Shown one piece after another: positions 7,401 through 40,263 of a stretch of 64,000 nt of DNA. The stretch's first letter is position 1; each line of letters starts with the position of its first letter. Source of the stretch: Halovivax limisalsi (GTDB taxonomy: Archaea > Halobacteriota > Halobacteria > Halobacteriales > Natrialbaceae). The notes under the pieces are model-generated. The model saw only the letters and a list, made by a program, of their open reading frames with translations. It did not search any database and was not told where the DNA came from. The stretch is taken from positions 2,418,001 through 2,482,000 of the forward strand of contig NZ_CP095757.1 of NCBI RefSeq assembly GCF_023093535.1. Direction: 5' to 3'. A program made the position numbers and the translations under genes.

Positions 7401-8162
7401 TCAGTCGGTTTCCTCGCCGGCACACACGGCTTCGAAGACCGTCCGGTGCATGCGCGAAGTCACGTGGGAGGCGATCGTGGCCAGGTTCTCCGTGTCGGCC
7501 CGATTGTAGCGGATCAACGTCTCGAGCGCCTCGTCGTCACCGGCCTCGTACGCGCGCCATAACCTGACCGCATCCCGTCCGGAGAGGTCCGGGAGGTCGC
7601 GCTCGATCCCGAGCGCCGACTCGACGCCGTCGAGGCCGCCCGTGAGGTCGAGCGACCGGCAGGGGTAGTACAGATCGAGGTGCGGCGCGGATAGTTCGAC
7701 GTCGAACGACGACTCCAGAAACGGAACGTCGAATCGCCGACCGTTGAACGTCACGAGCAGCGGAACGTCGTCGAGTTCGGCCCGGAGCGTCGCCGCGTCC
7801 AGATCCGTCCCACGGACCAGCGTCGTCGTTTCGCCGGCCCGGTGGATCGTGACCGTCGTGACGTCGTGGCGATCCCGCGAGAGCCCCGTGGTTTCGATAT
7901 CCAGATAGCAAGCCTCGTCGCCGGCGTTTTCGAAGAGCCGCCACTGGTAGCGAGGCGGCACCTCCTCCGCGAAAAATTCGAACTCGTTCCGCGAGAGGTG
8001 CTTCCGCGCATCGTCGATGAACGATTCGATGCGCGCGGCCGTCTTCGGACCGACGGCGTCGGCGCTGAACTCGTCCCAGTGCGTGATGCCGTCCGTCCAG
8101 AGTTGCCGTTCCGTGGCTTCCCCGACCCCGTAGACGGGAATGAAACTGTTCTCGATTCGCAC
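7401..8162 (-). CDS. RNase H-fold 3'-5' exonuclease-like protein (YprB type)
   Basis: A 253-residue protein with an N-terminal helix-hairpin-helix-like segment (PVYGVGEATERQLWTDGI) and a DnaQ-like RNase H domain from about residue 80. The exonuclease acidic residues are seen in YLDIETTGL (Exo I, DxE), LVTFNGRRFDVPFLE (Exo II) and RYNRADTENL (Exo III). This matches the RNase_H_2/YprB-like group, predicted to be a nuclease; the substrate is unknown. Its 3' end faces the HalOD1 gene convergently. Confidence 0.82.
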   Translation of the reverse strand: MRIENSFIPVYGVGEATERQLWTDGITHWDEFSADAVGPKTAARIESFIDDARKHLSRNEFEFFAEEVPPRYQWRLFENAGDEACYLDIETTGLSRDRHDVTTVTIHRAGETTTLVRGTDLDAATLRAELDDVPLLVTFNGRRFDVPFLESSFDVELSAPHLDLYYPCRSLDLTGGLDGVESALGIERDLPDLSGRDAVRLWRAYEAGDDEALETLIRYNRADTENLATIASHVTSRMHRTVFEAVCAGEETD

Positions 8163-8246
8163 GGGTGCTCAGGGGCGCCGAATCGAGAAAAGCGCTCGGG
8201 TTCGGGTTCCGATACTTCCGATACTGGCTCGGCGATCCGCTCCGGT

Positions 8247-8308
8247 ACTCCTCGGTGTTGTCCGAGAGGTATCCGTCTCCGTCACTCCTCGGTGTTGTCC
8301 GAGAGGTA
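8247..8308. repeat. 25-bp direct repeat duplicating the 3' end of the adjacent gene
   Basis: ACTCCTCGGTGTTGTCCGA plus GAGGTA occurs identically at 8247-8271 and 8284-8308, a 37-nt period. The right-hand copy encodes the last residues and TGA stop of the large acidic protein on the minus strand. The left-hand copy lies immediately downstream of that stop. The period is not a multiple of three, so the second copy is untranslated in that frame. It looks like a recent tandem duplication of the gene's end. Confidence 0.85.
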
Positions 8309-10279
8309 GTACGTGCGGTCGATCACCTCGACGATGGCTCGACGCCACTGCGAGACGGTCGACCCGTCGGCGTCCGGAATGTCGACGACCACCCGATTCC
8401 CGGAGACGGAGACGTCGACCTCGCCGGCGGCCTGGTCGGCGAACTGCTCGAGCTGGTATCGGAGCAACCGATTCGTCGAATCGGTGGCCTCGTCGTCGAG
8501 TTCGTACGTGAGCGTCACGCCGTCGTCGTCCGCGGTCGCCTTCGCGGTGAGTCTGCGGGTCGAACGAGAGAGCGACGGCGCCTCGTCGTTGACCCGTTCG
8601 ACGGCGTCGTCGACGGATATCTCGGCCGATCGCGTATCCTCCGGCGAGAACTCCTCGAACGTGTACTCGATCCCCTCCGTCGATCCGTCGACCGACGCCT
8701 CGGTGACGTCGGCGTCCGGATCGACCTCGTCGTTCGCCGTCTCGAGGGCGGACGCGTCACCCTCGCCATCCGCGTCCCGTTCGTCGACTGGGTCGGAATC
8801 GGGGTCGTCGGTCGATTCGCGGTCTGGGTCGTCTGACTCGTGATCGAGTTCCGATCCGTCCGCCCGCTCCGTCGCGTCCGTCGACTCGGCCGACGGCTCT
8901 GCCTGAACGTCCGACTCGTCAGCATCACGATCCGGATCGCCTGCGGTCAGTTCGCTGTCCGACGAATTCGGCCCACTCGGCTCGGCGGTCGACGCGGCGG
9001 GCGCGTCACGATCGGTATCGTCTTCGTCGGCGGCGGATGCGTTCGCGGTTGCCGCGTCGGCTTCGTCCGTCCGCGTCTGGCGCTCCTCGTCGAGGCGCGT
9101 GCGCAATTCCAGCAGTCCGAGATCCTCGAGGAGCGCTTCGAACAGTTCGGCCGCCGTTCGATCGTCGACCGGCTCCTCGCCGTCGGTCGTCCGTGCCACC
9201 GCTTCGAGTTCGTCTTCGGTCACCACGTCGAAGATGGACGCCGCCTCCTCGTCGACGTCCGTGGAGAGCGAGCCGCGATCGAGGAGCGAGTCGCCCGCGT
9301 CCGCCGACGAGTCTGCCTCCTCGGCGGTGGTTCCTTCCTCGTCGGCGTCCGCGTCCCCGGCGCCAGCCCCTTCGGCTGCATCTGCCTGCGCGACCGAGTC
9401 GGCATCCCCGACTGGATCCGTGGTGACGACCCCGTCGTCTGTGTCCGGGTCGTCAGCATCGTCGGCCGCTGGCGTCGTCGTTCCCCCGAGGACGATCGGT
9501 TCCTGTTCGGCCGTCACCGTTGAATCGTCTCCGTCTTCCTCCGCCGACGCATCGGGCGATCCGGATTCGAGGGCACCGGCGATCACGGACTGGTTCGCCG
9601 CGATCGTCTCCCGGTCGAGCGGGGTCGCGTACCACGGGGTCCGATCCGGCGACGTGACGAATCGGCCTCGGTTCGGGGCTTCGGCCGGGTCGGCTGCCGA
9701 CGCTTCGTCGGCGGTGGTCGCGCCGGACTCGTCGGGCCGTCGGTCGGGGGCGTTCGGGCCGCGGACGGGGGTCGGGTCGGCCCCGAGCGAGGCGCGCGAG
9801 GGCTGTGGCGGTGCATCCGATTCGCCCTCCTCCACCTGCGTCTCCGCTGGATCAGCCGCCGTCTCGTCGCTTGATTCGACCCCGTCGGTAGCGGAATCGG
9901 CGGGTTCGGTGGCGGCGTCGGCGGCGTGACCACCCGCGGGGTGGTCGCTTGCGGTGGACGGTTCCGTCCGCGTCGCGCCGGCTCCGGTCGCCGCCGTGTG
10001 CGGGCCGGCGGCCGTCGCAACCTGGCCGGCATCGGGCCCGGACCCGATCGTCGTCCCGCCCCCGTTCAGGTGTAGTTGCGTCCCGCCGCCCGCCGTTCCG
10101 TCGACCGTGTGGGTGAGGTCCGTGATGTCGTCGTCGAGGGTGTCCTCGAGTTTGTCGATCTTGTCACCGACGCCGCGCAGCGCCAGGGAGATATCCCAGA
10201 GAACGACCGTCGCGAAAAACAGGAGCGCGAGCAATACGGTGACGGCCACGCCGCCGAGGATCTGCACGTCGACTTCCAT
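8282..10279 (-). CDS. Large acidic, membrane-anchored haloarchaeal protein
   Basis: A 665-residue protein starting MEVDVQILGGV; the frame can be opened to 10312 but the internal ATG directly precedes the membrane segment. One N-terminal transmembrane helix (VAVTVLLALLFFATVVLW) is followed by a short amphipathic helix (DKIDKLEDTLDDDITDL). About 450 residues of low-complexity Asp/Glu/Ser/Thr/Ala-rich sequence follow, probably disordered. A folded C-terminal domain of ~125 residues begins near IEYTFEEFSPEDTRSAEISVD and contains alternating strands. Topology and function are unknown. The organisation resembles a tethered domain on a long acidic stalk. The C-terminal coding end is duplicated downstream. 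Confidence 0.72.
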   Translation of the reverse strand: MEVDVQILGGVAVTVLLALLFFATVVLWDISLALRGVGDKIDKLEDTLDDDITDLTHTVDGTAGGGTQLHLNGGGTTIGSGPDAGQVATAAGPHTAATGAGATRTEPSTASDHPAGGHAADAATEPADSATDGVESSDETAADPAETQVEEGESDAPPQPSRASLGADPTPVRGPNAPDRRPDESGATTADEASAADPAEAPNRGRFVTSPDRTPWYATPLDRETIAANQSVIAGALESGSPDASAEEDGDDSTVTAEQEPIVLGGTTTPAADDADDPDTDDGVVTTDPVGDADSVAQADAAEGAGAGDADADEEGTTAEEADSSADAGDSLLDRGSLSTDVDEEAASIFDVVTEDELEAVARTTDGEEPVDDRTAAELFEALLEDLGLLELRTRLDEERQTRTDEADAATANASAADEDDTDRDAPAASTAEPSGPNSSDSELTAGDPDRDADESDVQAEPSAESTDATERADGSELDHESDDPDRESTDDPDSDPVDERDADGEGDASALETANDEVDPDADVTEASVDGSTEGIEYTFEEFSPEDTRSAEISVDDAVERVNDEAPSLSRSTRRLTAKATADDDGVTLTYELDDEATDSTNRLLRYQLEQFADQAAGEVDVSVSGNRVVVDIPDADGSTVSQWRRAIVEVIDRTYYLSDNTEE

Positions 10280-10394
10280 AGGTACTAGGTACGGAGGTCG
10301 AAGGTTCGACATATAGAGGTTCGTCCCGTTTCAGCGCTCGAATCGACGGTCGAGGTGGCCTTCGAAGGCGCCTCGGCTCGCCGACGATCGGTTC

Positions 10395-10877
10395 TCACTC
10401 GAGCGATTCGGCGTAGACGTACCCCGCCTCGGTCGCCCTCGGGCGATGGCCGTCGAGCGTGAGTCGCCAGTCGTCGACGACGGCCGGCTCCGACAGCGCC
10501 CGCTCGGCGGTCGTCCGCACGTCGTCGACGTCGAGCCCGTAGAAATCGGGCGGGACGTCGGCCAGGTACCGAAGTGCGGTTTCGAAGAGTCGGAACAATC
10601 CAGCGTCCGACCCGAAGTCCACCCGCTTGTACACGCCGGCGGCGATCTGGACCATCCCGTGGCAGAACGCGCTCTCGGTCGTTCCGGCGCCGTAGTTGTA
10701 CCACTCGTCCTCGAAACAGTCGTGCGATTCGTGGTACGCGCCGTCGTTGAAGAGGCCGACGCCGTGGCGCAACGCCCGCCGCAACGTCGCGTGCTCCCAC
10801 CGGCGTGCGGCAAGATCCCACCCCGTCGGGTTGCCCAGCGGGGGCGGTTCCGACGGGGCCCGGGTGTGTTCGTCCAT
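10395..10877 (-). CDS. DUF309-family protein
   Basis: A 160-residue helical protein with the DUF309 hallmark: a His/Glu-rich helix FNDGAYHESHDCFEDEWY followed by FCHGMVQIAAGVYK. The clustered His, Glu and Asp suggest a metal-binding or small-molecule-binding helical bundle; no reaction is established. The ATG at 10877 is chosen because the family begins shortly before RRALRHGVGLFN. The frame extends to 11054 but the extra residues are Arg-rich shadow sequence. It is transcribed divergently from the small zinc-ribbon gene at 11011. Confidence 0.85.
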   Translation of the reverse strand: MDEHTRAPSEPPPLGNPTGWDLAARRWEHATLRRALRHGVGLFNDGAYHESHDCFEDEWYNYGAGTTESAFCHGMVQIAAGVYKRVDFGSDAGLFRLFETALRYLADVPPDFYGLDVDDVRTTAERALSEPAVVDDWRLTLDGHRPRATEAGYVYAESLE

Positions 10878-11010
10878 GGACCCAAGTAGGGTGAGCGTAC
10901 CGAAAAAGGCGCGGCCGCGGCGGCTCGACCGCGTGCAGAATCCGTCGGTCAATCGGTGCCTGCGTATCCGTGCCCGGTCGTTTACCCGGGCTGGTGCCGT
11001 ATCGGGAGGC

Positions 11011-11148
11011 ATGCAGTATCCACGCGGCCGGTGTGACCGCTGTGGGGGGCGCATGTACGCACAGATTCGGGGCGGCGTTCGCTGTCCGAACTGCGACCGA
11101 ACGGTCCGGCGATCCCGAGGGCGAACGAATCGATTCCGTCACCCGTAG
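11011..11148 (+). CDS. Small zinc-ribbon protein (45 residues)
   Basis: ATG at 11011 has GGGAGG just upstream and opens a 45-residue frame with two knuckles: CDRCGG (residues 8-13) and CPNCDR (25-30), spaced as in a rubredoxin-like zinc ribbon. It is followed by a basic Arg-rich tail (RRSRGRTNRFRHP) that could contact nucleic acid. Small CPxCG proteins are abundant in haloarchaea and often missed by gene callers. The function is unknown. Independent support would come from conservation. Confidence 0.6.
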   Translation: MQYPRGRCDRCGGRMYAQIRGGVRCPNCDRTVRRSRGRTNRFRHP

Positions 11149-11263
11149 CGCGATACCCATCGAACGCCTACTGGGTCCGGACCCCTGGCCAGTCGCCTCG
11201 TTCCCTCGCCCGCGACCGGAATCGCAGGGTATTCAAACGAACCCGACGTAGTCCGGACCGCGT

Positions 11264-11346
11264 GCGAGGGTAGCCAAGCGGCCAACGGCGGCGGACTCAA
11301 GATCCGCTCGTGTAGACGTTCGTGGGTTCGATCCCCTCCCCTCGCA
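11264..11346 (+). tRNA. tRNA-Leu (anticodon CAA)
   Basis: A class II tRNA of 83 nt with a long variable arm. The acceptor is GCGAGGG/CCCTCGC with discriminator A, the anticodon arm is GCGGA-CTCAAGA-TCCGC giving CAA (decodes TTG), and the variable arm is around TCGTGTAGACGT. The T-arm is GTGGG-TTCGATC-CCCTC with one T-T mismatch. No intron and no encoded CCA are seen. Confidence 0.93.
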
Positions 11347-11382
11347 TCGCAGTGCGCCGCACCGCCGCGGCGCGCGAGATGC

Positions 11383-11408
11383 GGAAGATCGGCACGAAGC
11401 GATCTTCC
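11383..11408. terminator. Strong hairpin downstream of tRNA-Leu
   Basis: A perfect 9-bp inverted repeat, GGAAGATCG ... CGATCTTCC, with an 8-nt loop lies 37 nt past tRNA-Leu. It may be part of the trailer, a terminator, or a short structured RNA. No pronounced T-run follows, so the terminator label is tentative. Confidence 0.35.
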
Positions 11409-11565
11409 CTCGCAAATTCCTCTCGACGAAGCGGTCGATCGATACGACAGTGCTATCGGCGTTTCGTTGGGGGACGAGTCTGACATGGATAGCCCCAACG
11501 GCGGATTGATCCGGGACGGTACTGCCGACCGCCACACCTTACCCGGCGGGCGACGCAGGGAACGC

Positions 11566-12369
11566 ATGGACGAGTCACGCGATGACATCGATGTCGAAGG
11601 CCTTGCCCTCGAGGCGGCGCGGGCCGGGGCCGCCGTCGCCCGGGAATCGTTCCGCCAGGAGTTGTCCGTCGAAACGAAGGCGAACCAGATGGACGTCGTG
11701 ACGCAGGCCGACCGGGAGGCCCAGGACGCCGTCGTCGGTCGGATACGCGAAGCGGCCCCTGACGACGCGATCGTCGGCGAGGAGGACGGCACTCCGAGCT
11801 CGATTCCGGCGAGCGGCCGGACCTGGATCGTCGACCCGATCGACGGCACGGCCAACTACGTGCGCGGCGTGCCGACCTTCGCCACGGCCGTGGCCGCCGT
11901 GGCGGGCGATGAGACGCTTGCGGGCGCCACCGTCTTTCCCGTACTCGACGATACCTACGTCGTCAGCGGCGAGGAACCGCGCCTGAACGGCGATCCCATC
12001 ACGGTGAGCGAGCGAGCGGATCCGAAGATCTGTACCGTCAGTCCGGGGCTGTGGTGGGACCGGGACCGCCGCGACGAGTACGCACGCGCCTGCGACGAGA
12101 TCGTCCACCGATTCGGCGACATGCGTCGCGTCGGCTGTGCGCAGGCGGAGCTCGCGATGGTCGCGACCGGCGCGCTCGACGCGATGATCGCCAACGTGGC
12201 CGCCGCGCCCTGGGACACGGTCGCCGGCGTCGAACTCGTCCGGACCGCCGGCGGCACCGTGACGGACCTCGAAGGAGAACCGTGGACGGTCGACAGCGAG
12301 GGCCTCGTCGCGTCGAACGGTCGCATCCACGGCACGGCGCTCGCAGCCGCCAGCGCAATCGAAGATTGA
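11566..12369 (+). CDS. suhB: Inositol monophosphatase-family phosphatase
   Basis: A 267-residue lithium-sensitive sugar-phosphatase fold enzyme. Archaeal members dephosphorylate inositol-1-phosphate and often fructose-1,6-bisphosphate. Metal-site motifs are the Glu in VGEEDG, WIVDPIDGTANYVRG (the DPIDGT signature) and the C-terminal PWDTVAGVELVRTAGGTVTD. ATG at 11566 is chosen since the sequence before it is not family-like. An intact DUF63 membrane-protein gene lies downstream in the same orientation but is separated by the ~3 kb insertion, so the two may once have been adjacent. Confidence 0.92.
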   Translation: MDESRDDIDVEGLALEAARAGAAVARESFRQELSVETKANQMDVVTQADREAQDAVVGRIREAAPDDAIVGEEDGTPSSIPASGRTWIVDPIDGTANYVRGVPTFATAVAAVAGDETLAGATVFPVLDDTYVVSGEEPRLNGDPITVSERADPKICTVSPGLWWDRDRRDEYARACDEIVHRFGDMRRVGCAQAELAMVATGALDAMIANVAAAPWDTVAGVELVRTAGGTVTDLEGEPWTVDSEGLVASNGRIHGTALAAASAIED

Positions 12370-12445
12370 CGGCCGACTCTCAGCGTCCGAGTAGAAGCGG
12401 GGCGCCCGCCCATTCGACGGTCGTCGAGGCGGTCAGTGATCACCG

Positions 12446-12513
12446 TTCGTGTCCGAAACGGAACCAATAACACAGCGGCCCGCTGGCGGAACCGTCTGTA
12501 CGAATACGTTGAT
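12446..12513. repeat. Left copy of the DUF63-gene 5' end (remnant)
   Basis: This 68-nt stretch aligns with 15449-15517, the leader and first codons of the intact DUF63 gene, with about 56 of 69 columns matching by eye. The leader half is nearly identical. In the coding half the differences fall mostly at codon third positions: CTG TAC GAA TAC GTT GAT here versus ATG AAC GAG TAC GTC GAC there. The start codon is lost and similarity stops after the sixth codon. It is best read as the stump of a DUF63 gene copy. The rest of 12370-12541 holds no gene. Confidence 0.75.
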
Positions 12514-12541
12514 CTCGGAAAACCACTGTCGAGACGGCACG

Positions 12542-13825
12542 TTACGCGAGCACGGCTGTTATCTTTCCAATCCATCCGGTGAGAAGCAAGATGCCGATAG
12601 CAATGAGGAAAATTCCGTTGAGTTTCATGGCCACCGGCAGCCACTTTTTCTTCAATTCGGAGCTAAGCGAAACTCTGTCGGCCAGTGCTGCTGAGAGCAA
12701 GAACGGAATGGATAATCCGAACGAGAATACAACCAGCAGTAACGCACCCTCCGCGACGGAAACTGTGGCAGCCAACGTCAGAATCGCCGCCAGTACCGGC
12801 CCGATACACGGAGTCCAACCGGCACCAAAGCCAGCGCCCACGAGCAACGATCTGCTGTAACTTTGCGACTGGTCGGAATCAGGGTTGAACAACTTCCACT
12901 CGGAGTGTAATTTCTGTATTTCCAACACACCAGCCACGTTCAAGCCAAACAGAATGATGACTACCCCGCCGATTCGTGCCAGCCAGACACTAAATGCCGA
13001 GAACGCGTTACCCAGTACACTAGCGCCGAGGCCGAGGGAGACAAATACAGTTGAGAACCCAACACAAAAGAGCACAGCGTTGATAAAGAGGCGTACTCTG
13101 TCTTTTCCGGTTCTCTTATTGGTTCCGTTCTGCCCCACTTCCTGGTGACTGACGCCCCCGATGAACGAGAGAAAGAGCGGAATCAATGGGAAAAAGCACG
13201 GTGAGAAGGCAGCGAGGATTCCGGCGCTGAACGCGGTAATCAGAAAGACGCTGCTGGTTTGTGTATTTTCCGACCCAGACGTGCTATCGAGGGCGTGCTT
13301 GACAGTTGACTGTGCCTGATCGGACTGCGGGTCGAACTGCCCCATCCAGCGATGTACCACGGTACCATCTTCGTCAATCAGCACAGTTGACGGCGTTCCA
13401 ATGGTCTGGAACGTCCGAACAACCCGCCTGTTTGGATCGTGCAGGGTCGTGAACGTTACGCCGGTATCATCGACGAACTGTTTAATTTCCTGTGAGCTGC
13501 CTGTATCGTCTATGCTCGCACCGACGACGACGAGCCCGTCATCCGAATACTGTTCATAGAGTTGCTGTAATTTCGGCATTTCCTCGCGGCATGGGTCACA
13601 CCAGGTCGCCCAGATATTGAGCATAACCACCTTCTCCCCTTCAAACTGAGAGAGACGCACAGTTTCACCGTCGAGCGTTTCTGCGCTATAGTCGGGCGCC
13701 GGCTCACCGATCGCAACTCCGCTACTGTTCAGATCAGTCCCGGAGGTCTGGAGATAGAACCCAATTCCGCTCGCGACGATCGCTACGACCAGTACGACAC
13801 CAAGTATTGGTTTTAAATTTTTCAT
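12542..13825 (-). CDS. Thioredoxin-like (TlpA/ResA) and CcdA fusion protein
   Basis: A 427-residue membrane protein for moving reducing equivalents across the membrane. An N-terminal anchor (residues 6-25) precedes a TlpA/ResA-type thioredoxin domain facing outside, with WATWCDPCREEMP (WCDPC at 75-79) and a TPSTVLIDEDG cis-proline loop. From about residue 193 there are six hydrophobic segments of a CcdA/DsbD-gamma domain carrying FSPCFFPLIP and GWTPCIGPV, each with the redox Cys. The order thioredoxin-then-CcdA is the reverse of the usual C-terminal thioredoxin of DsbD. Likely roles are cytochrome c or copper-oxidase maturation, or reduction of the neighbouring lipoprotein; this is inference. 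The coding DNA is visibly less GC-rich than its neighbours. Confidence 0.9.
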   Translation of the reverse strand: MKNLKPILGVVLVVAIVASGIGFYLQTSGTDLNSSGVAIGEPAPDYSAETLDGETVRLSQFEGEKVVMLNIWATWCDPCREEMPKLQQLYEQYSDDGLVVVGASIDDTGSSQEIKQFVDDTGVTFTTLHDPNRRVVRTFQTIGTPSTVLIDEDGTVVHRWMGQFDPQSDQAQSTVKHALDSTSGSENTQTSSVFLITAFSAGILAAFSPCFFPLIPLFLSFIGGVSHQEVGQNGTNKRTGKDRVRLFINAVLFCVGFSTVFVSLGLGASVLGNAFSAFSVWLARIGGVVIILFGLNVAGVLEIQKLHSEWKLFNPDSDQSQSYSRSLLVGAGFGAGWTPCIGPVLAAILTLAATVSVAEGALLLVVFSFGLSIPFLLSAALADRVSLSSELKKKWLPVAMKLNGIFLIAIGILLLTGWIGKITAVLA

Positions 13826-13875
13826 ATGGCGTCCGTATGAGTTGTTGATCAGTAAGTTGATTTTCGGTCAGCGAG

Positions 13876-15246
13876 TTAGAACGTAGAAAAATATCCGCGC
13901 TTGTCATTCCCACGCCATACGATGCCAGTTCCATCGGTTACCGAAGTGAGGTGAGGGTTGTGACCGTGGAGATCGACGTCACTGAACTCGACTATTCCCC
14001 CGTCGGACGTCACTTTGGTCAGTTGCACTATTGTACCACCGCCACTCCCGTGGCTCGTGGACGAATTGTCCCGGTCCGTGGACTCGTTCGTTGTACCGGT
14101 GTGACCCATATGGCTGTCAGAATTCTCGCCGAGCAGACCCTCATATGCGACCCAGGCATCCCCGTTGGGAGCAACGTGCAGCGCTGGTTGGGTTATCGGC
14201 GCGTACTCCGGCGTGAAAATGGACACCGGATCGTCAGGCCATGATCGGCCGTGATCCGTGGAGACTCCGTAGTAAACGCCGTAATCATCCGTGCTTCCGC
14301 TGAACCAGGTAGCGTGCAAACGCCCGTCCCCGTCCAATCCGATGTCCGGGCCGGAATGGGGACACCCATCGTAGTGCCAGTTGTGATCGTAGAATTTCAC
14401 AGGCGTTCCCCACGTCCGGCCCCCATCGGTGGAATACGCGACCACGTGGTCTCGAATATCCATCTCATCGGACGGGTAGACCTTCCGCCAGCTTACGTAC
14501 ACCGTCCCGTCCGACCCAGCTGCCAACGCCGGTCGGCAACACGGACAGGCAGGACTATCGGGATCGACGTTGACACCAAGATCGCCCGCGCTCGACGTCC
14601 ACGACCGGCCTCCGTCCGTCGACCACATCACGCGTATTGATCGCCCGGAACTGGTTGCACTGGCAGACTGTAGCGTCGCCACGTACAGTTTTCCATCGGG
14701 TGCGACGGCCAGATTGTGGTAGTCCCGCGTTGCTGGCGTCTCATCCACCTTCGGGCCGACCGTAGTAACCTCGAAACTTCGGCCACCGTCCGTCGACCGG
14801 GCGAATCGGATAGAGCTTTTACCGTATTCGTACTCCTCAGCCTCCGGATAATGCGAATCCCAGGAGACGCAAAGCGTGCCGTCAGTAGCTACATCCAATT
14901 GCTGGGGCGCCGATTTAGATGAATCGACAAATCCGTCCGTCTCGTTGACGCGCGTCGCTTCACTCCACGTCTCGCCACCGTCTGAGGACCGCTTCAGAAA
15001 CAGGTCCTTGCCCCCGCCTTCGGCAGGCTCGACGTACGTCAGATACGTCGTTTCCGATGCGGAGTCGTGAACGGCTTTCGGCAATGATGATGTGGCGGAC
15101 GTTATCTGCGCTGGATCACTTATTCCAAGCGTCTCCGTCGTCCCAGCCTCCGTTTTCGGATCTGTACGGGTGAACCCGAGGCAACCACCGAACATTCCCG
15201 CAGCGCCAACACCTGCAATCGAACCGAGGAACCGTCTCCGTTGCAT
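13876..15246 (-). CDS. Tat-exported lipoprotein with Asp-box (sialidase-like) repeats
   Basis: A 456-residue protein whose N-terminus MQRRRFLGSI ... GMFGGCLG has a twin-arginine motif and a lipobox with Cys at residue 22. The body shows five Asp-box motifs (SSDGGETW, two STDGGRS variants, STDGGRTW, STDHGRSW), typical of a six-bladed BNR propeller. Catalytic sialidase residues are not evident, so exo-sialidase activity should not be assumed. Unusual features are a CPCC motif at about 234-237, a nearby GCPHSG, and a Met/His/Ser-rich segment (DSHMGHTG, STSHGSGGG) near 378-403, suggesting metal or redox chemistry. It lies 50 nt upstream of the thioredoxin-CcdA gene, so an operon is likely. Confidence 0.85.
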   Translation of the reverse strand: MQRRRFLGSIAGVGAAGMFGGCLGFTRTDPKTEAGTTETLGISDPAQITSATSSLPKAVHDSASETTYLTYVEPAEGGGKDLFLKRSSDGGETWSEATRVNETDGFVDSSKSAPQQLDVATDGTLCVSWDSHYPEAEEYEYGKSSIRFARSTDGGRSFEVTTVGPKVDETPATRDYHNLAVAPDGKLYVATLQSASATSSGRSIRVMWSTDGGRSWTSSAGDLGVNVDPDSPACPCCRPALAAGSDGTVYVSWRKVYPSDEMDIRDHVVAYSTDGGRTWGTPVKFYDHNWHYDGCPHSGPDIGLDGDGRLHATWFSGSTDDYGVYYGVSTDHGRSWPDDPVSIFTPEYAPITQPALHVAPNGDAWVAYEGLLGENSDSHMGHTGTTNESTDRDNSSTSHGSGGGTIVQLTKVTSDGGIVEFSDVDLHGHNPHLTSVTDGTGIVWRGNDKRGYFSTF

Positions 15247-15264
15247 ATTCCAGACGGATGTACG

Positions 15265-15283
15265 CAATATTAATACTGTATTG
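15265..15283 (-). promoter_or_regulatory. Promoter of the lipoprotein/thioredoxin-CcdA operon
   Basis: AATATTAATACT (15266-15277) is a TATA-like core 20-31 nt before the ATG at 15246, fitting a leaderless mRNA. It is embedded in the inverted repeat CAATA ... TATTG, which could be an operator. Confidence 0.5.
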
Positions 15284-15448
15284 GTACAATAGTAGAAACC
15301 CTGTGATCCGAGACCGGCCAGGTCCGTTCACCATGCGATAACCCGTCCATTCCGTTCGAGATCGACTGGAGAACCGTAAAGACAGGGCGAACTCGACGGC
15401 TGTGCTCGACGAACGGCGTCCGAGCAGCGCGAGGACCGTGTTCGAACC

Positions 15449-15517
15449 TTCGTGTCCGAAACCGGAATCAATAACATAGCGGCCTCCCGGCTGAAACGTA
15501 TGAACGAGTACGTCGAC
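15449..15517. repeat. Right copy of the direct repeat flanking the insertion
   Basis: This copy contains the leader and first six codons of the functional DUF63 gene. Together with the left copy at 12446-12513 it brackets about 2.94 kb of lower-GC DNA. It is the presumed native sequence because it continues into the full gene. Confidence 0.75.
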
Positions 15518-16624
15518 CGCTACGGGCCCGAACGGGTCTGGGCGGCGATCGTGATCGCCGTCGTCGCCGTCGTCGCCGCCCTCGTGGCCATCTTCCCGCA
15601 ACGGGTTGGCGTGGACGTCCTGTGGCAGTACTTCTGGGGGCCCGTGGTCGCCGACGCGAACGGCATGAACTGCGTGGCGTGGGCCGGCGGCGAGCAGCTA
15701 TCGTGCTCGGTCGCCGGACCCGATTCCGGGCCGACGGCCAGCCCGGGCTACACCGCGATCTCCTACGCGGGGTACATTCCGACGCTATTACTCCTGTTGA
15801 CCGGGTTCATCTTCGTCATCGACCGCCTCGATATCGACCGCTATCGCGCCGGATTCTGGGGACTGTTCCCGTTCATGCTCTTCGGCGGCGCGTTCCGGGC
15901 CGTCGAAGACGCCAACGTGGCCGTCAACGAGGCGACGGGCGACGCCGCGCTCTCGCTGCCCTGGCAGGCGCTGATCATTAGCCCGTTCATCTACGTCACG
16001 GTCGCGTTCATCGCCCTCTGTGCGGTCGTGATCGCGGTCTGGCTCGACCGGCGAGGAATCGTCTCGCGCTACGAGTACCCGCTCGCCGGGATGGGAACGG
16101 CGTTACTCCTCGGGTCGATCGCGATCCTCGCGTCCTGGGCCGCCGTCGGCGGACACGGCTTTTACCCCTCCTTCGCCGTCGTCACGCTCGGACTCGCGAG
16201 CGCGATCACGGCCGCGGTCTGGCTGGCCATCCAGCGGTTTGCCCCCGAGTTGAACGCGGGAACACGGAAGATGGGCATCGCCGTTCTCTGGGCCCACAGC
16301 GTCGACGGCGTCGCCAACGTCCTGGGTCTGGACTGGGCGACGGCATTCGGCCTCCCCACTAACCTCGTACCGAAGCACCCGATCAACGCCGCCGTCCAGC
16401 GCTATACGGGCGAACTACTCCCCCAGTCGATCGAAGCGACGACCGGCGACACCTGGCCGTTCCTCCTCCTGAAGGTCGGGGCGGCGGTCTTCATCATCTG
16501 GGCGTTCAACGACGAGGTGTTCGAGGAGAGCCCGCGATTTACAATCCTGCTCATGCTGACCGTCGTGGCCGTCGGCCTGGGTCCCGGCACGCGCGACATG
16601 CTCCGTGCGACCTTCGGCGTGTGA
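15500..16624 (+). CDS. DUF63-family multi-pass membrane protein
   Basis: A 374-residue polytopic membrane protein of the archaeal DUF63 family, function unknown. About eight to nine hydrophobic segments are visible (for example [44 protein letters not shown]). Conserved-looking polar blocks are [30 protein letters not shown] and [20 protein letters not shown] at 15500 is chosen because a hydrophobic helix starts shortly after it; the frame extends to 15452 through leader sequence. The 5' end is duplicated 3 kb upstream. It is probably a former neighbour of the inositol monophosphatase gene. Confidence 0.88.
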
Positions 16625-16732: not shown

Positions 16733-17632
16733 ATGACAGCAGAGAGGCCGTCGTCCGGCGGCTGGTTCGCCGACGTCGACCCGGACGATCCGGACGCAGC
16801 CGTCGAGGCGATCAGGGACGGTCGAGCCGACCAACCCGATCGGTGGCCCGCGCTCGCCGTCGAATCTGGGATCGTCGCCGACGAGGACGCCTACTACGAC
16901 TGGCTGTCCGAGTCGACGATCGAGGCGACGCGTCGCGCCGTCGACGAGCGCGAGCGCGCGGGCGATACCCAACTCACCCACGCCGTTCGGGCGATGGACG
17001 ACTGCCGACGCACGGCGAACGAGCTGGCCGAGCGACTCGCCGAGTGGGCGGGGACGGTCGACCCGGACGCTGGAGCTGGCGTCGGATACGCCCGCAAGAT
17101 CGTCGCCGACGAAACCGACGTTTCCGACCGCTCGATCCGATCGCTGGCCGAGCGCGTCGTCGACCTCGACGACGAGGCCGACGCGCTCGAAACGACGATC
17201 GAACGAACCGCGCCCGCGGTCGCGCCGAACCTGTCCGCGCTGGCCGGACCCGTCCTCGCCGCGCGACTCGTCTCGCTGGCCGGCGGCCTGGAATCGCTCG
17301 CGAAGAAACCCAGCGGAACCGTCCAGGTGCTCGGCGCCGAGGACGCCCTCTTCGCGCACCTCCGGGGCCGGGCGACCTCACCGAAACACGGCGTCATCTA
17401 CACCCACGAGGCGGTACGCGGTACTGATCCCGCCGAACGGGGCTCCGCTGCCCGCGCGCTCGCCGGCAAGCTCTCGATCGCCGCCCGGATCGACCACTAC
17501 AGCGGCGACCGCCGTCCCGAGCTGGAAGCGGAACTCGCCGAACGAATCGAGACGATCCAGGCGCGTACCGACGCGACCGACGACGGAGCAGGTGCCGCCG
17601 AATCATCCAGCCAGGGTGAGACCGATGGATGA
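16733..17632 (+). CDS. nop5: Nop5/Nop56 C/D-box RNP core protein
   Basis: A 299-residue scaffold of the archaeal C/D-box sRNP that joins L7Ae-bound guide RNA to fibrillarin for 2'-O-methylation of rRNA and tRNA. The N-terminal fibrillarin-binding part is short and acidic. A coiled-coil region follows, then the Nop domain with NLSALAGPVLAARLVSLAGG, SGTVQVLGAEDALFAHLR and the signature PKHGVIYTHEAVRG. The C-terminus is acidic and variable. Its stop overlaps the fibrillarin start by 8 nt, giving the standard archaeal nop5-flpA operon. Confidence 0.97.
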   Translation: MTAERPSSGGWFADVDPDDPDAAVEAIRDGRADQPDRWPALAVESGIVADEDAYYDWLSESTIEATRRAVDERERAGDTQLTHAVRAMDDCRRTANELAERLAEWAGTVDPDAGAGVGYARKIVADETDVSDRSIRSLAERVVDLDDEADALETTIERTAPAVAPNLSALAGPVLAARLVSLAGGLESLAKKPSGTVQVLGAEDALFAHLRGRATSPKHGVIYTHEAVRGTDPAERGSAARALAGKLSIAARIDHYSGDRRPELEAELAERIETIQARTDATDDGAGAAESSSQGETDG

Positions 17633-22159: not shown

Positions 22160-22436
22160 CCGACACTTTCCGTTCCCTCCCGGCGGTGGTCGCCGTTCCG
22201 GCGGTACGGATTCGACGAGCGCCGACGCTGTCGGGGCCACGGTCGTCGCGAACTCGAGAAGGTGATCGGTACAGAGGACCCCGGAGGAGCCAACCATCCT
22301 GCGAGCCGCGACCCGCGGTATCCGCGGCTTGTGTCGCACCGAACCCGGCGACCGCGCACTGTGTCGTCTCGTACCCACCAGGAGAGCTTTCCGTCGGAAA
22401 CAGCCAAATTCAGACGGGAGAGATGCTGAAAACGTC

Positions 22437-34115: not shown

Positions 34116-34934
34116 CTACGGCTGGTTGACATACACGTCCGTGGGCGTCGCGGTGATGTTCCAGCCCAGCCAGTTCTCGCCCATGGGGTCGTTGCCGCTG
34201 GTGATCGACGCCTGCGAGGACACCCACTCGTCATCGTAGACCTCGATCTCCCAGGTAGCGTGGGTCGAGCCCCGGAAGAACGGAGTGCTATAGAACTCGC
34301 TGATGTGGGCGTCGGTGTGGGTGATGGTGTCGCCGATCAGGCTAACCAGAAAGCTCGTCCCCGCAATGGTCGCGCCGGTATGGGGCCCGGCCAGATAGGC
34401 AGCGCCGATACCAAGCAGAGCGGAGGCCGCCGCGGCGAACGTTTGGTTCGGACCGTCGTCGTAGGCGTCGGTCCCGTCCTCTCGGGCCGGCGACATGTAG
34501 ATGTCCCGGCCGGACATGTGCAGTTGTCCGTGGTTGGTGTCGGCGTTGTCGATGCTGAAATCGAATTGTTGCGCGTTAGCCGCGGCCGGGTGGTCTACGC
34601 GACTGTCGGGATCGTCGTCGTAGCCCTCGGCCTCGGTCACTGGCATCGCCTCGCCCCCGGACTCGGTCACCACGTGATCGCTCGCCATCCGGAACGAGTG
34701 GTAGCCGGGTTCGTAATCGTTCGTCGTGACGGTGAGGGAAGCACTCGTATGGTGCTCGTAAGTGGTCCCGCCGGCTGTCTCGAAGACGGCGTCGGTCTTT
34801 TGATCGTACGTGATGGTCTCGGAATCCGGCCCGTCGTCGGCTTTCGCTACGGGAACCATACTAACAGCTCCGGTCAGCCCGGCAAAACCGGTCTTCAGAG
34901 CGTGTCGCCGAGTTGCACTGGGTCTACGTCCCAT
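34116..34934 (-). CDS. Putative Tat-exported secreted protein, unknown
   Basis: A 272-residue protein with an N-terminal RRHALKTGFAGLTGAVSMVPVAKA stretch that resembles a Tat signal, with Arg-Arg and a hydrophobic core ending at an Ala-x-Ala site. The mature part is Asp/Thr/Ser/His-rich with many beta-prone segments (SASLTVTTNDYEPGYHSFRM, THATWEIEVYDDEW). A hydrophobic stretch near residue 165 (TFAAAASALLGIGAAYLAG, then ATIAGTSFLVSLIGD) could insert in a membrane. I recognise no family. Codon usage and lower GC upstream suggest accessory DNA. The ATG at 34934 is preceded by an AT-rich promoter-like stretch. Confidence 0.6.
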   Translation of the reverse strand: MGRRPSATRRHALKTGFAGLTGAVSMVPVAKADDGPDSETITYDQKTDAVFETAGGTTYEHHTSASLTVTTNDYEPGYHSFRMASDHVVTESGGEAMPVTEAEGYDDDPDSRVDHPAAANAQQFDFSIDNADTNHGQLHMSGRDIYMSPAREDGTDAYDDGPNQTFAAAASALLGIGAAYLAGPHTGATIAGTSFLVSLIGDTITHTDAHISEFYSTPFFRGSTHATWEIEVYDDEWVSSQASITSGNDPMGENWLGWNITATPTDVYVNQP

Positions 34935-39690: not shown

Positions 39691-39886
39691 GACACCGCTA
39701 CTGTCGGGGGAATCCGGTATGGTCGTGGTGCTTGCACATCCGCGGCGAGAACCTAACTGTGCCCTCGATTCGAGCAACGAAGGGTTACTTCGCCCGATAG
39801 ACGACGGTGCGATCACCTTCGTTCACCGCGAGAACGGAGTTCTCGCGAGCGTTCGTTCGCTCTGCTCACGAACCCCACGCAGAAGC

Positions 39887-40210
39887 GGGCCGGGCGCGAT
39901 TTGAACCGAAACCAGACGGTCCTGCTCGCCTCACTTCGTTCGGCTACGCGGGCTGCGACTGGTAGGGCTCAAATCGCTGGTGGCCGCTTCGCTCGTCACG
40001 TCCGTTTTCCGTGAGACGTTCGTCTCACGACGTTCCGTTCGCTTGCGCTCACGGAACCCTCGCAGAAGCGGGCCGGGCGCGATTTGAACACACGGTCGGA
40101 CGTGATCACTCCGTTGCGCGCGCCCTCTCTGCGTTCAAATCACGCCGGATCCAACACGCGTCGCTCGCGGATTGCTCGCGACGCGAAGACGGGCCGGGCG
40201 CGATTTGAAC
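39887..40210. repeat. Three copies of the tRNA-Lys 3' end
   Basis: The 20-nt block GGGCCGGGCGCGATTTGAAC occurs at 39887-39906, 40070-40089 and 40191-40210. The last is the true 3' end (T-arm and acceptor) of tRNA-Lys; the other two are isolated. Copies 1 and 2 also share upstream flanks (CGCAGAAGC, GCTCACG), so part of the spacing region has been duplicated. Repeated tRNA 3' ends are the usual trace of integration at a tRNA attachment site. No integrase gene is nearby. The 39691-40189 stretch otherwise has no gene. Confidence 0.75.
40011..40028. repeat. Perfect 18-bp palindromic hairpin between tRNA fragments
   Basis: GTGAGACG-TT-CGTCTCAC is an 8-bp perfect inverted repeat lying between the first two tRNA-Lys 3'-end copies. 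It may be a recombinase or resolvase site or a terminator of a lost element. Confidence 0.4.
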
Positions 40211-40263
40211 ACGCGACCGTCTGATTAAGAGTCAGACGCTCTGCCTAACTGAGCTACCGGCCC
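40190..40263 (-). tRNA. tRNA-Lys (anticodon CTT)
   Basis: A 74-nt cloverleaf on the minus strand: acceptor GGGCCGG/CCGGCCC with discriminator G, D-arm GCTC-AGTTAGGCA-GAGC, anticodon arm TCTGA-CTCTTAA-TCAGA (CTT) and T-arm GCGTG-TTCAAAT-CGCGC. No intron and no encoded CCA. Its 3' end is repeated twice downstream (see the repeat entry). Confidence 0.95.

Follow-up and report, generated by a model that had tools for sequence, protein, structure and literature searches.

Two compositionally foreign genes lie between a decayed and an intact copy of the DUF63 gene start in Halovivax limisalsi

Among described routes of gene acquisition, homology-facilitated illegitimate recombination is close to the case considered here. 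In this process, described for bacteria, homology anchors the incoming DNA on one side and the other join is non-homologous (PMC5361080). It likewise leaves part of the old gene behind. In the Vibrio case the anchor lies upstream (PMC5361080), whereas in the archaeal case considered here it would be the start of the downstream gene, and a donor was not found. In Haloquadratum walsbyi, a precise insertion of foreign DNA has been described by a route that the authors call not yet described (PMC3119063). The likeness lies in integration without a mobile element and in the direct repeats that bound some indels in that organism. However, those repeats are mostly shorter than 20 bp and are read as causing deletions (PMC3119063), whereas the repeat described below is about 70 bp long with copies 82% alike. 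Unlike the deletion-coupled insertions of Haloquadratum, the insertion described here showed no deletion of neighbouring genes.

Concerning the inserted genes, proteins with ResA/TlpA and CcdA domains, for instance on Bacillota plasmids, have the same domains as one of them. Those are mostly annotated as two genes and are less than 60% identical, whereas here they form one fused protein next to a BNR lipoprotein. The sialidase-family protein of the Roseobacter litoralis plasmid pRLO149_83 is a homologue of the lipoprotein and shares its CxCC and GCP motifs. Its gene has two-component, CopC, CopD and multicopper oxidase genes in the vicinity, but a thioredoxin-CcdA gene is absent from the stretch shown.

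The stretch of DNA analysed here, 64,000 nucleotides of the H. limisalsi contig NZ_CP095757.1, is referred to as the window, and the features of the locus are collected in Table 1. We regard the locus as the scar of a gene uptake, clear yet of an ordinary kind, and as a modest find, of which the pair of inserted (cargo) genes is most worth following.

Table 1. Features of the phosphatase-DUF63 locus in window coordinates.
Feature	Coordinates	Strand	Basis or remark
Inositol monophosphatase family gene, predicted start	11566..12369	+	Pfam Inositol_P 3.9e-54; upstream neighbour of DUF63 in 29/29 loci
Left copy: decayed DUF63 promoter region and six initial codons	12442..12512	+	CTG at 12498 replaces ATG
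Thioredoxin (TlpA/ResA-like) fused to CcdA/DsbD-type membrane domain, 427 aa	12542..13825	-	Pfam AhpC-TSA, Redoxin, DsbD_TM
Tat-type lipoprotein, BNR beta-propeller, conserved CxCC and GCP cysteines, 456 aa	13876..15246	-	Pfam BNR_2, alignments, model and fold matches
Intergenic stretch upstream of the lipoprotein gene, presumed promoter	15247..15445	-	Includes palindrome-like CAATATTAATACTG, 15265-15278
Right copy: DUF63 promoter region and six initial codons, joined to the intact gene	15446..15516	+	
DUF63 membrane protein gene, intact, 374 aa	15500..16624	+	Pfam DUF63 1.6e-26; groups within genus

DUF63 was found in every one of the 125 genomes of the family that were searched. The locus was compared with 29 related loci, four from the same genus and 25 from other members of the family. 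In all 29 the phosphatase gene directly precedes DUF63, across gaps of 68-219 bp, the largest being partly due to shorter alignments. The window alone among these loci has genes in between. Since the uninterrupted state, which the preliminary description had proposed to look for in related genomes, was found in 29/29 loci, the two cargo genes represent an insertion.

The genes around the insertion follow the genus. DUF63 groups inside it with support of 100/100, nearest to G003 (88/89), and this grouping ruled out a DUF63 gene foreign to the genus. The phosphatase also groups inside the genus, with G003 (97/94), and the gene downstream of DUF63 (16733-17632) groups with the genus among the seven rows that hold it, G003 being missing. 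No clear crossover point was seen in the window DUF63. Between two genus mates (L004 and L005, from G004 and G001), identity of the DUF63 genes is about 97% over the 50-codon block at either end and 61-73% over the middle blocks, and the phosphatase genes are nearly identical. This mosaic appearance suggests exchange inside the gene, and exchange within DUF63 thus seems to occur, which favours the recombination proposed below. We also noticed that G093, the sole genome of the 125 with two DUF63 matches at E 1e-60, carries two full-length genes on two contigs (C1:1168457-1169581 and C2:10032-11156).

The left and right copies aligned locally over the whole of their tabulated lengths with a score of 75 and two 1-base gaps. 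Comparison with shuffled leaders had been set beforehand as a check; 2000 dinucleotide-shuffled pairs gave a mean of 19.5 and a maximum of 33, and the runner-up site within the window scored 27, tiles overlapping either copy being left out. When the window was compared with itself by blastn, 12446-12512 and 15449-15516 were 82.35% identical over 68 columns (E 4.8e-11), so that the estimate by eye of about 56 matching columns in 69 was correct. Mismatches were scattered along the whole length and left no near-identical core. Of the claim that differences in the coding half fall mostly on third codon positions, the count stands (3/5) but the bias is weak, with a hand-worked binomial chance of about 0.21. 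The similarity ends abruptly past codon 6 of DUF63, where downstream extension scored 0. An extension upstream of 12442 across the intergenic region was not significant, its score being equalled by 28 of 300 shuffles, and a separate local match in the same region was rejected as well (58 of 1000). No third copy was found in the genome itself, in which a query of 15440-15530 retrieved, at E < 1e-3, only itself and the left copy.

We then examined what the repeated sequence corresponds to in the relatives. A block near ACCGGAA followed by a TAA-containing stretch precedes DUF63 in 29/29 loci, near-constant and about 25 nt before the ATG. Both window copies carry an ACCGGAA-type block at the distance seen in the relatives. 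The repeat, which had been described as a gene end, is therefore better termed the promoter region of DUF63 together with its six initial codons. The block probably represents a haloarchaeal promoter. For such promoters a BRE of the CGAAA type together with a TATA box has been proposed, and 72% of the protein-coding transcripts of Haloferax volcanii are leaderless (PMC4983044).

Between the copies lie two genes, both on the minus strand, as had been reported. The lower GC content also noted there was confirmed: it is 0.52-0.61 between the copies and about 0.70 outside, and third-position GC is 0.618 and 0.645 in the cargo genes against 0.812-0.893 in eight other genes of the window. The cargo is compositionally foreign to its host. 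It is missing at the loci of all four genus mates. Its own genome aside, the lipoprotein had no match in a draw of 391 genomes from the class (390 others, E 1e-10) or of 392 from the order (391 others, E 1e-6); the two draws overlap, and in both of them scoring was confined to the top candidates of a permissive first screen. For the fusion, the best match in the family beyond its own genome was 29% identical; at E 1e-20 it matched 13 of 392 genomes of a phylum draw, its own included, the others at 26-40% identity. Both marks of a horizontally acquired cassette, absence at the site in relatives and a composition unlike that of the host, were thus found. Upstream of the lipoprotein gene, the palindrome-like sequence listed in Table 1 is perhaps an operator or part of the promoter of that gene.

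The relatives of the cargo were then sought more widely. When named genomes were scanned with the fusion, 80 loci were retained, and the titles examined were all bacterial. The best relative in that scan, 41% identical, came from a metagenome-assembled genome of Nitriliruptoraceae (L053). Among 132 loci, excluding the window's own, lipoprotein relatives at E 1e-4 occurred only in L053 and in L096. In L053 the lipoprotein relative ends just upstream of the fusion, with order and orientation as in the window, and because of this shared arrangement the cargo pair looks like a bacterial-type unit. The distribution points to transfer from bacteria to the haloarchaeon as the probable direction. No lipoprotein relatives were found in viral contigs. 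In frames read by eye, genes for NrfD-like, molybdopterin oxidoreductase-like and 4Fe-4S proteins adjoin the gene pair in L053 (about 7592-13000). The homologue in L096, also from frames read by eye, adjoins a TonB-type receptor gene, a separate TlpA-like gene and ExbB/ExbD/TonB-like genes.

Decay was evident in the left copy. It has CTG where the gene has ATG, in agreement with the loss of the start codon described earlier, and it lacks one base of the block conserved in the relatives. Among columns where the copies differ and at least three of the four genus mates agree, the mates sided with the right copy in nine, with the left in two and with neither in nine; within the repeat proper the counts were six for the right and two for the left. 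The right copy also outscored the left against all six relatives tried. The losses in the left copy and the closer likeness of the right copy to the relatives make the left copy a decaying relic. The spacing between the left copy and the phosphatase is the ancestral one, so that the left copy may just as well be the resident relic and the right copy the newcomer. Both origins offered in the preliminary description, an incoming diverged DUF63 stump and a decayed tandem copy, fit these observations.

We propose, with moderate confidence, that the cargo was acquired horizontally by recombination touching the 5' end of DUF63. Once the lineage had diverged from the closest relative sampled, a compact bacterial-type unit consisting of a promoter, the lipoprotein gene and the thioredoxin-CcdA fusion gene would have entered the gap between phosphatase and DUF63. 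In the process the promoter region and six initial codons of DUF63 would have been duplicated, or a further copy of them brought along. The likeliest route would be that incoming DNA ending in a related DUF63 5' region recombined by homology at the DUF63 side and was joined without homology, immediately past codon 6, at the other. The copy attached to DUF63 would keep the gene intact, and the copy beside the phosphatase would decay. Of the interpretation in the preliminary description, the part that recombination at the DUF63 5' end brought in a lower-GC segment is supported by the 29 uninterrupted loci, by the composition and distribution of the cargo, both of them foreign, and by the lack of a transposase or integrase gene between the copies. 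The repeat fits a homologous anchor, but the homology spans just about 70 bp with no visible extension, which counts against this route. A donor with the cargo adjoining DUF63 was not found in the 125 family genomes, in which the leader DNA gave chance-size matches besides the two copies. Because the window DUF63 shows no clear crossover point and groups with the genus, a donor would have to be closer than any sampled genus mate.

A duplication made during repair could yield the same anatomy. Here a break would have been repaired by capturing the foreign DNA and filling in or copying the resident leader over about 70 bp at each side, the copies being identical at first and the left one drifting later. 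This would suit the sharp end of the repeat, the features that both copies share and the four genus mates lack, and the alignment of the copies with each other (score 34), which exceeds that of either with any relative (best score 23). However, 70 bp is a long duplication for fill-in, and the entire divergence of 18% would have to be later drift; we consider this course of events rather unlikely. Direct repeats and a target gene intact at one end, as observed, are also what a single crossover would leave if a small circular DNA with the cargo and a DUF63 leader had integrated. We judge such an event distinctly improbable, as the insert holds no replication gene or other plasmid gene and the pair occurs in no plasmid record: the lipoprotein gave one distant match among 72,556 records, and all of the 1550 records matched by the fusion were below 60% identity.

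The position of the cargo between direct repeats, with the target gene restored at one end, might further recall a mobile element that inserted at the DUF63 promoter, made the repeats and has since lost its integrase or transposase. The copies enclose only the two cargo genes, neither a recombinase, which bears out the earlier statement that no transposase or integrase is present. In addition, the repeats are only 82% alike and lack a long identical core, no tRNA lies at them (the nearest, tRNA-Leu at 11263-11348, is beyond the phosphatase), and the weak inverted match of the cargo ends was equalled by 38 of 1000 shuffles. Such an element is very hard to reconcile with these observations. Recombination at the DUF63 5' end is retained as our preferred reading.

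The cargo looks like a bacterial-type thiol-redox module, possibly copper-related. The features that define TlpA/ResA-CcdA proteins, the thioredoxin CxxC and the two membrane cysteines of CcdA, are present in the fusion, which can therefore be expected from its sequence to transfer electrons through the membrane to thiols of the envelope. The motifs WCDPC, SPC and TPC, whose cysteines we take to be the redox cysteines, are identical between the window fusion and that of L053. The CxCC and GCP cysteines of the lipoprotein do not vary among the four aligned homologues. Its structural model was all-beta (pLDDT 72.6) with a beta-propeller fold, and the best Foldseek matches include sialidases at E about 1e-10 and TM-scores of 0.4-0.6. 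A sequence search of the PDB gave no match for the lipoprotein. Sialidases (GH33) possess an arginine triad and catalytic Tyr, Glu and Asp residues; the modelled likeness to them is one of fold, and membership in the enzyme family is not claimed.

It is a reasonable proposal that the lipoprotein holds a metal site which the fusion would keep reduced, and the pair may have a role in thiol or copper handling of the cell envelope. That the two make up a module of the envelope not described so far, with the fusion reducing a cysteine site of the propeller that binds copper or another metal, and that this module passed from bacteria to the haloarchaeon, is a possible but tentative extension. None of the papers searched combined sialidase, copper resistance and CcdA.

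The locus presents a well-resolved case in which foreign genes have come to interrupt a conserved gene order of archaea and no mobile element can be recognised. The doubling of its promoter accounts for the survival of the downstream gene, and the relic shows the scar of such an acquisition before it disappears. From the cargo it seems that a soda-lake bacterium and a haloarchaeon have in common a redox pair that is possibly linked to copper.

Elsewhere in the window, two other imperfect direct repeats were observed, 39813-39906 with 39996-40089 (80% over 96) and 40065-40094 with 40185-40215 (93% over 31). Both adjoin or overlap a tRNA-Lys gene (40190-40263), possibly an old attachment site. 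Further 500-base stretches below 60% GC lie near 22251, 34501-34751 and 45251.
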